Source: Ignavibacteria bacterium
GTDB taxonomy: Bacteria > Bacteroidota > Ignavibacteria > Ch128b
DNA length: 64,000 nt
Direction of reading: 5' to 3'
NCBI GenBank assembly: GCA_013177855.1
Contig: JABLYA010000001.1
Location: 2,498,983-2,562,982, forward strand
The translations under genes and the position numbers were made by a program. A model generated the notes under the pieces. The model made no database searches and was not told the origin of the DNA. It saw only the letters and a list, made by a program, of their open reading frames with translations. Positions 59,117 to 60,925 of this stretch are shown piece by piece (position 1 is the first letter of the stretch; every line of letters begins with the position of its first letter).

Positions 59117-59239
59117 AATAATCTCGAGACTCAAATTATTGAAGCAGATATTTCAGAATTTAAATTCAAAACTCTTTAGATGAAGTGTAGAAAATTTTGA
59201 ATAAGTATGCTTGATGTAAGCAAAATCTGACAGCATTTT

Positions 59240-59420
59240 CCCGAACCCCCGTGTAAATAATTAGACAATTGATGAGTGAAGAGAGCAAAGTTGCGATTTT
59301 TTTAATTTTTTCCAGAAATTTCTTTCCCGAACCCCCTAGGGTTTTTAAAGAAAATGAGGTTCGGAGAAAAAATGCTTGACATTTCTGCAAAAATAAATTA
59401 TAATTGCAGAAAATAAACCT
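59240..59420 (+). promoter_or_regulatory. CRISPR leader with sigma70-like promoter
   Basis: TTGACA at 59376-59381 and TATAAT at 59399-59404, with exactly 17 bases between them, precede the first repeat by 16 bases. Upstream, CCCGAACCCCC occurs twice (59240-59250 and 59326-59336), and CCGAACC at 59327 is complementary to GGTTCGG at 59358. The promoter fits transcription of the array from left to right. Confidence 0.8.
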
Positions 59421-60250
59421 GTTGTAATCGAACCATAGTGGAATTGAGACCAACTATTTTATTATCGTACTGTTTGTTAGTGCTACGTTGTAATCGAACC
59501 ATAGTGGAATTGAGACATTCGAGATTTTTCGCTAAGAATTTTACCGCTTGTTGTGTAGGTTGTAATCGAACCATAGTGGAATTGAGACAGTTACTACTGT
59601 TCTATCTGTTAAATTTACATGATACGTTGTAATCGAACCATAGTGGAATTGAGACGCAGCTTAGTAATAATATTTGGCTTAGATGGTTGCGTTGTAATCG
59701 AACCATAGTGGAATTGAGAGCAGCTTAGTAATAATATTTGGCTTAGATGGTTGCGTTGTAATCGAACCATAGTGGAATTGAGACAGTTTTTCTTTTAAGT
59801 CTGTAAGTAAATTAGTAAGTGTTGTAATCGAACCATAGTGGAATTGAGACTAATCAATGAGATATTGGTAGAAAAAGGGAATAAAAACGTGTTGTAATCG
59901 AACCATAGTGGAATTGAGACTATATATAATTGAAAGTGTCAGTCAAGTAAATCAAAAGAGTTGTAATCGAACCATAGTGGAATTGAGACACTTTTGTATC
60001 TCCGTCGCACGAGATGTTGTCCTCAGTTGTAATCGAACCATAGTGGAATTGAGACTTTAAATGACCTAATGACCGCATCTTCGAAAAGGAGTTGTAATCG
60101 AACCATAGTGGAATTGAGACATGGTCAATATGTCGTTTCCAGTTAATTCTGCTGCAGTTGTAATCGAACCATATCCCGACAAGTCGGGATCTCGTTCCGC
60201 TGATTGATTAAATTTTTTAATCGTTAGCGGAACTCGAGTGGAATTGAGAC
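59421..60250 (+). CRISPR. CRISPR array: 11 intact repeats plus a split twelfth
   Basis: The 30-base repeat begins GTTGTAATCGAACCATA and ends GTGGAATTGAGAC. Repeats start at 59421, 59487, 59559, 59626, 59691, 59755, 59821, 59891, 59960, 60026 and 60091; the one at 59691 lacks the last base. Spacers are 35-42 bases long. The spacers at 59656-59690 and 59720-59754 are identical. The twelfth repeat is split: 17 bases at 60157-60173, a 64-base insert, then 13 bases at 60238-60250. The ATTGAGAC end fits the crRNA 5' handle of type I or III systems and the orientation given by the leader. No cas gene lies in the window. Confidence 0.95.
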
Positions 60251-60925
60251 AACCGTAGTCGATGCTTCCAGCTTCGAATGTATCCCAACAAATCAAGATT
60301 AGTTTTTGATGATTAATTGAAATTTCCTAATCGCACGCGGAACTCGAGTGGAATTGAGAACAAGTTTTGATTTTGCATTTAGTTAAATGATTAAGGTGGG
60401 TTAGAAAGATGATCGAGTTTATTCTGAGCTTGGCGAAGCATAATCGAACCATATCCCGACAAGTCGGGTTCTCGTTCCGCTGATTGATTAAATTTTTTAA
60501 TCGTTAGCGGAACTCGAGTGGAATTGAGCCAACCGTAGTCGAAGCTTCCAGCTTCGAATTTGTCCCGACAAATCAAGATTAGTTCTCACTGATTGATTGA
60601 AATTTTCTAATTGCACGTGGAACTCGAGTGGAATTGAGAACAAGTTTTAATTTTGCATTTATTTAAATGATTGAGATGGGTTAGAAAGATGATCGAGTTT
60701 ATGCTGAGCTTGACGAAGCATAATCGAAACATATCCCGACAGGTCGGGATCTCGTTCCGCTGATTGATTGAAATTTTTGAATCGTTAGCGGAACTCGAGT
60801 GGAATTGAGACAAATGTAGCCGAAACTTCCAGCTTCGAATTTGTCCCGACAAATCAAGATTAGTTTTTGCTTATTTATTTAGATTTCCAAATCGCACGAG
60901 GAACTTGATTGGAATTTAGACTTAT
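60161..60925. repeat. Degenerate CRISPR trailer: three tandem copies of a ~280-base unit
   Basis: TAATCGAA(C/A)CATATCCCGAC recurs at 60161, 60441 and 60721, an exact 280-base period; the third copy ends at about 60925. Each unit contains a CRISPR repeat split by a palindromic insert, a spacer-like segment with GCTTCCAGCTTCGAAT, and a second, more decayed insert again ending in GGAACTCGAGTGGAATTGAG (the third unit degraded). The first two units finish with a stretch including GAGCTTGGCGAAGCA or a close variant. Short reverse-strand frames here are not genes. Confidence 0.85.
60174..60237. mobile_element. Double-hairpin palindromic mini-element inside CRISPR repeat 12
   Basis: Hairpin 1 is TCCCGACAAGTCGGGA. 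Hairpin 2 has outer arms GTTCCGCT and AGCGGAAC and an inner stem GATTAAA-TTT-TTTAATC. The insert interrupts the CRISPR repeat exactly between CCATA and GTGG. Related copies are at 60454-60517 and about 60734-60798. The 16-base head is shared with the element at 8891-8936. Confidence 0.7.

Follow-up and report, generated by a model that had tools for sequence, protein, structure and literature searches.

The window, a 64,000-nucleotide stretch of a 2.65-Mb contig within the 3.66-Mb genome of an Ignavibacteria bacterium (the host, G000), contains a CRISPR array, A1. Its repeats are near-identical, its spacers are unique and of regular length, a leader precedes them and Cas genes are present in the genome. 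The 30-nt repeat, GTTGTAATCGAACCATAGTGGAATTGAGAC, occurs in 11 intact copies, and the twelfth (60157-60250) is split at its centre, as 17 + 64 + 13 nt. As a promoter-like site lies upstream of repeat 1, the array is read with its leader on the left and its distal end on the right. The features are as follows.

59376..59404, + strand: promoter-like site of the leader, TTGACA-17-TATAAT (12/12), shortly before repeat 1; arrays A2 and A4 have it at the same place in their leaders
59421..60120, + strand: array A1, 11 intact 30-nt repeats with their spacers
60157..60173, + strand: 5′ half of repeat 12, GTTGTAATCGAACCATA
60174..60189, + strand: palindrome P1, TCCCGACAAGTCGGGA; genome-wide (at most one mismatch) only in the trailers of A1 and A2, 5/5
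60190..60237, + strand: P2, a second hairpin element of 48 nt with arms GTTCCGC (60194-60200) and GCGGAAC (60227-60233)
60238..60250, + strand: 3′ half of repeat 12, GTGGAATTGAGAC
60251..60359, + strand: diverged unit U2a, ending in GTGGAATTGAGA; homology to the split unit judged by eye
60260..60276, + strand: palindrome of the CGAAGCTTCCAGCTTCG type, one mismatch; more copies at 60540-60556 and 60821-60837, and all ten genome matches in the trailers of A1, A2 and A3
60424..60438, + strand: REP-like motif CTGAGCTTGGCGAAG directly before a truncated repeat, TAATCGAACC; second copy at 60704-60718, motif also elsewhere in the genome
60441..60720, + strand: second trailer unit, of 280 bp (93% identity to 60161-60440); its split repeat is at 60437-60530
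60721..60920, + strand: third trailer unit; its split repeat is at 60717-60811 and is followed by a diverged end

Within the intact part of A1 a 64-nt repeat-spacer unit is perfectly duplicated (59656-59783, spacer GCAGCTTAGTAATAATATTTGGCTTAGATGGTTGC twice), and the repeat between the two ends in GAGAG. The leader carries two copies of TTTCCCGAACCCCC 86 bp apart (59230-59350), which are present in the leaders of A2 and A4 too.

Both halves of repeat 12 are perfect, and the 64 nt between them (60174-60237) form two hairpins in the predicted fold. As RNA the 94-nt split repeat folds with −33.5 kcal/mol, compared with −19.4 ± 2.9 for shuffled sequences (z −4.8; 0/200 as good), and as DNA with z −5.7. 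An earlier note on this DNA had described a repeat intact on both sides of 64 extra nucleotides that fold into two strong hairpins, and this description proved exact. A MITE has transposon-derived terminal inverted repeats and, as a rule, a duplicated target site; no such duplication is visible at either junction of the repeat 12 insert.

Split repeat 12 opens a leader-distal trailer with three split copies and a period of 280-281 bp. The copies at 60437-60530 and 60717-60811 are missing from the earlier note, and they make the interruption part of a tandem trailer; repeat 12 is the start of that trailer and no lone insertion inside a live array. When the five split units of the whole genome were aligned, the differences were almost all confined to the edges and the loop of P2, and the arms GTTCCGC and GCGGAAC were kept in all five. 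Between the split units lie diverged U2 units, in which the 3′ half of the repeat is clear and the 5′ half blurred, and each of the two linkers of the trailer ends in the REP-like motif abutting the truncated repeat (GAAGCA/TAATCGAACC). Repeat 12 comes after the last spacer, and the units beyond it are copied in tandem and hold no unique spacers, so the processing of split repeats hardly matters for immunity in the window.

A search of 60 relatives found the trailer DNA in the host only, except for one 26-nt match. The exact junction AATCGAACCATATCCCGAC had no match in genome_contigs or viral_contigs, TTGTAATCGAAGCTTCCAGCTTCG had none in viral_contigs, and plasmid and phage similarity searches gave no matches. 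A gapped split-repeat pattern gave nine matches in viral_contigs, none of them in arrays, and these were judged to be due to chance.

An intrinsic terminator consists of a GC-rich hairpin followed by a run of T. No match to this was found at 60157-60250; one weak match lies at 60455, in the second copy, and the total of two terminator-like matches in the region is close to the shuffle mean of 0.9. With no terminator signal at the first insert, and with the site being the end of the intact array, the simple terminator reading was rejected, and the internal transcription stop proposed in the earlier note is not supported.

The same split is present at a second locus of the host. A2, 384 kb from A1 and on the other strand of the same contig, has the same repeat, twelve repeats with different spacers and a leader 96.8% identical to that of A1, and it ends in the same split repeat and trailer units. 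It adjoins Cas1, Cas2 and type III-B genes (Cas10/Cmr2, Cmr3, RAMPs, Card1). In this type III-B locus with Card1 (L008 11497-18422, and L134) a TPR protein is encoded between cas2 and the leader, and a thymidylate-kinase-like gene and a radical-SAM-like gene stand in line with cas1. A4 has the same leader (97.9%), but its last repeat is unsplit and there is no trailer. A3, which adjoins type I-B genes, has more than 90 repeats of variant sequence and a palindrome-rich trailer at its end. In G002, a genome of the same genus, the repeat is the same and the leader 76% identical, and the contig ends within the array. Its last 26 nt past the repeat (L123 7400-7425), GTGCACTATGG, contain the centre of the repeat in reverse complement; an inverted trailer may begin here, or the assembly may have folded back on itself.

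That A1 and A2 have kept the same trailer through a complete turnover of their spacers would be expected of a selected functional element: a terminator, an RNA-stability hairpin, or an anchor that protects the array end by being unable to recombine with intact repeats. The arms kept in all five split units and the analogous trailer of A3 also point this way. Such a function is nevertheless given only a small chance of being the explanation, as the first insert is without a terminator signal, the stems are eroding in the U2 units and A4 does without a trailer.

The A3 trailer (L052 720-1300) consists of REP-pair linkers alternating with one unsplit repeat and three split-looking blocks. Two features of the A1 and A2 trailers are found in it too, the GAAGCA/TAATCGAACC junction and 22 nt around CGAAGCTGGAAGCTTCG, the latter in the opposite orientation in A3. 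Two of the three blocks are better read as a degenerate repeat, a 36-nt spacer-like segment and another degenerate repeat, so decay, besides insertion, shapes these array ends. Repeat 12 itself could then be two successive repeats with their spacer, eroded on facing sides. Its length of 94 nt is that of repeat, spacer and repeat (30 + 34 + 30), the right part of the A1 block keeps GAAC in register (20/30), and one A3 block has a near-complete degenerate repeat, GTTTTTATTGAACAAATGTGGAATTGA (24/30; shuffle maximum 19), 36 nt after a truncated one. Repeat mutations accumulate leader-distally, and insertions and deletions are commoner there (CRISPRDetect, PMC4869251); such degeneration agrees with the position at an old array end and describes the A3 trailer well. 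In the left block of A1, on the other hand, nothing of a 3′ repeat half is recognisable (18/30, 17 of these from the intact 5′ half); both visible halves are perfect and the insert between them is palindromic. Decay also fails to account for the inserts of 18-21 nt in other genomes (see below), which lie well inside arrays and are too short for a lost repeat-spacer pair, and as an origin of the split in A1 it is considered improbable.

These other genomes came from two surveys. The first, less biased but small, covered loci brought in via Cas1, of which twelve had a recognisable array besides those of the host and G002; split repeats were present in two of the twelve. The second was a gapped-pattern search over 391 genomes of the class for inserts between AATCGAACC and GGAATTGANAC with a total gap of 10-40 nt. 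It added one more genome and found one of the two again, and a reversed-pattern control gave 0; as the pattern sees only inserts between these two motifs, positional preference is not measurable from that search. Matches in G154 and G153 were not palindromic splits.

Three other genomes thus have repeats interrupted at this central point by palindromes of other sequence: ChocPot_Mid (a MAG of the Bacteroidetes/Chlorobi group), G118 and Stygiobacter electus. ChocPot_Mid has 128 repeats, 14 of them split by two palindromes, CCAT/TCCGCCAAGGCGGATAAA/AATGG and AACC/CTTGTTCGCCTCTGGCGAA/ATAATGG, with inserts of +17 to +19 nt (type a) and +19 nt (type b); nearly all split repeats stand between unique spacers of 34-39 nt. 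The array of G118 has 31 repeats including a truncated last one, and 14 (13 complete and the truncated one) are split by +20 or +21 nt, AACC/ACTTGTCCCGCCCTGGCGGG/ATAATGG, many between unique spacers of normal length. One distal block of G118 is duplicated near the leader, spacer included, so part of the spread is segmental. At least three repeats of S. electus are split by TACCTGCGGTAGGCAGG (AACC/TACCTGCGGTAGGCAGGCC/GTAACGG).

Elements near the 3′ end of the repeat were also seen. Some repeats of G118 have a second element there, and at five places (L175, reverse strand 9722, 10521, 10640, 11677 and 11816) a palindrome-rich element, TCCCGATACGGCTGGCGCCTATCGGGATC..., replaces the AGAC end of the repeat and is followed each time by the same pseudo-spacer. 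Another palindrome lies near the 3′ end of two S. electus repeats; at L148 16174 and 17032 palindromes of the TCCGCCAAAGGCGGA type enter repeats after GGAATT, and one repeat has two insertions.

In ChocPot_Mid (p = 1.5e-5) and G118 (p = 0.05) the split repeats are more distant from the leader than the intact repeats; these p-values are only indicative because neighbouring repeats are not independent. The split repeats of ChocPot_Mid are clustered (10 runs, 26 expected). Along the array the state changes between split and intact 16 times in ChocPot_Mid and 15 times in G118. Because the changes are so many, one insertion that was copied whenever a spacer was acquired was rejected as the sole process for these two arrays; more than one insertion, conversion of one repeat by another, loss or rearrangement has to be assumed.

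The region is repetitive and the genomes are mostly draft or metagenome assemblies, so an assembly artefact had to be considered. Two loci of the same 2.65-Mb contig, 384 kb from each other and with different spacers beside them, have the same junction, and the same kind of split recurs in independent assemblies. This makes an artefact very unlikely, and it was rejected; the split looks like a recurring biological event. The three further genomes, with different palindromes in the same place, also strengthen the proposal of the earlier note that a small palindromic element had been inserted into a CRISPR repeat.

The intact repeat is predicted to form a stem, CGAA.CCA / UGG..UUGA, with a three-base loop, ((((.(((...)))..)))), of −1.9 kcal/mol, which is no better than shuffles. 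The dyad is weak and in most of the repeats scores no higher than shuffles. All the central inserts lie at the loop of this stem or within about 3 bases of it; they follow positions 14 to 17 of the repeat, with no single fixed point, and inserts of two classes are placed near position 24-25. In the predicted folds of the split repeats of the window, G118 and ChocPot_Mid type a, the native pairs are kept and the new hairpin is stacked on them. Most native pairs are kept in ChocPot_Mid type b, but not in S. electus. The modelling suggests that the weak stem of the repeat is kept and stabilised in the split repeat, and the split may be tolerated because the hairpin would bridge the two repeat halves. 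On weakly structured repeats, Cas6 recognises the 5′ part and cleaves 8 nt from the 3′ end. A central hairpin might therefore be tolerated by the enzyme.

The distribution of the palindromes was then considered. With at most one mismatch allowed, all five host copies of TCCCGACNNGTCGGGA (P1 type) and all ten of CGAAGCTNNNAGCTTCG (CGAAGCT...AGCTTCG) are in CRISPR trailers, and none was found elsewhere in the 3.66-Mb genome. The G118 palindrome has 13 of its 16 copies in the array and that of ChocPot_Mid all nine on the array contig, while the count for S. electus is three of nine and dispersed copies exist. In G003, a relative from another genus, P1 itself (TCCCGACAAGTCGGGA) is dispersed, with up to 19 matches. 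In several places there (L088, L095, L097) it is the centre of a larger TTCCA...TGGAA palindrome, and none of the contexts fetched is in a CRISPR array. The P1 and G118 palindromes are alike except for one symmetric pair change and the loop.

Near-confinement to arrays, together with the central location and lack of target duplication, could mean that the palindromes grew in place, by polymerase template switching at the weak hairpin of the repeat (during replication or gap filling at spacer acquisition), and were later copied to other repeats. The diverged U2 units, in which a palindrome is re-formed in a shifted register (ATTTGTCCCGACAAAT beside TCCCGACAAGTCGGGA), are consistent with this. 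Growth in place is nonetheless thought somewhat unlikely: closely similar palindromes rich in GC (TCCCGMC..GKCGGGA) are present in genomes that are not related, which together with the dispersed copies in G003 and S. electus argues for an element family, and identical inserts of 18-21 nt recur in many repeats of one array.

REP elements of the GTAG or CGTC class are imperfect palindromes of 20-40 bp with GTAG or CGTC at one end, a high dispersed copy number and an association with RAYT. P1, a 16-bp palindrome in a 64-nt two-hairpin insert, and the 18-21 nt inserts of the other genomes resemble them, and the wider REP/REPIN (RAYT, Y1, IS200/IS605-like) systems, in being tiny, non-coding, hairpin-forming palindromes with no target duplication. 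Y1-type genes occur in the host (four Y1_Tnp matches, three above the cut-off). REPs have moreover been recorded within other palindromes in some species (PMC3733652). The resemblance is not complete: neither tag is present at the ends of P1 or of the G118 and ChocPot_Mid inserts, and in S. electus GTAG is internal only; the host palindromes are confined to CRISPR trailers (5/5 and 10/10) rather than dispersed; and none of the REP motifs searched for lies beside the Y1 genes fetched.

Other small mobile DNAs are also comparable. The MITE HqIRS37 of Haloquadratum walsbyi HBSQ001 is likewise small and non-coding and inside an array, but it is a single copy in a spacer of a residual CRISPR locus (PMC3119063), whereas here the palindromes are at the repeat centre, several per array in two genomes. 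The A-type Small Mobile Repeats of Haloquadratum (PMC3119063), likened here by description only, are also small, with terminal inverted repeats and no target duplication, and too short for a transposase; they belong to a different host group and are not reported in CRISPR repeats there. CRISPR loci of Sulfolobales have been described as relatively intractable to transposition, and for euryarchaeal loci one IS element and one 132-bp MITE were noted (PMC4390879), which agrees with the statement in the earlier note that such insertions are rarely reported. A full-text literature search of partial coverage, with few terms, found no description of palindromes in the middle of CRISPR repeats.

The finding is thus of REP-like palindromes in an unexpected, recurrent place. 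It seems on balance probable that they insert at the dyad tip of the repeat, an insertion followed in the window by tandem and array duplication, and that this happened separately in at least three other genomes. The host arrays are in keeping with this, the same terminal-repeat insert being found in two arrays with near-identical leaders and different spacers, and A4, with the same leader, being unsplit. We infer transposition as the cause, targeting of the dyad tip and the following order of events. P1, a small REP-like palindrome, would have entered the loop of the weak stem in the terminal repeat of an ancestral array, and P2 would have been added to the split repeat. The split repeat and its neighbourhood may then have been tandemly duplicated to give the 280-bp trailer, and duplication of the leader-repeat-trailer array would have carried the array end to a second locus. 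The trailer would now be the frozen leader-distal end of A1 and A2, all upstream spacers of which differ. Insertion at the same spot would have occurred separately in at least three other genomes, and repeatedly within arrays in two. Several points speak against dyad-tip insertion: there is no target duplication, the insertion point varies, the S. electus fold is without the native stem and the dyad is weak. P1 has no scattered copies in the host, and a donor is therefore not apparent in that genome.

More tentatively, CRISPR repeats could be a preferred landing site for tiny palindromes. Each array would offer a dense field of identical weak hairpins; a palindrome entering the tip would extend the stem and leave both repeat ends usable, so that split repeats could keep serving, arrays would fill from the oldest end first and in some genomes the array would be almost the sole refuge.

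A CRISPR repeat is commonly taken to be an almost invariant unit. Insertions that recur at its centre, with unique spacers on either side, would mean that repeats can accommodate 18-64 additional nt at the dyad centre, with consequences for what Cas6 and Cas1-Cas2 in fact recognise. Programs that look for arrays with a fixed repeat length can cut an array at a split repeat. As position in an array reflects relative age, split repeats would form a dated insertion record from which the behaviour of very small mobile palindromes over time could be read.
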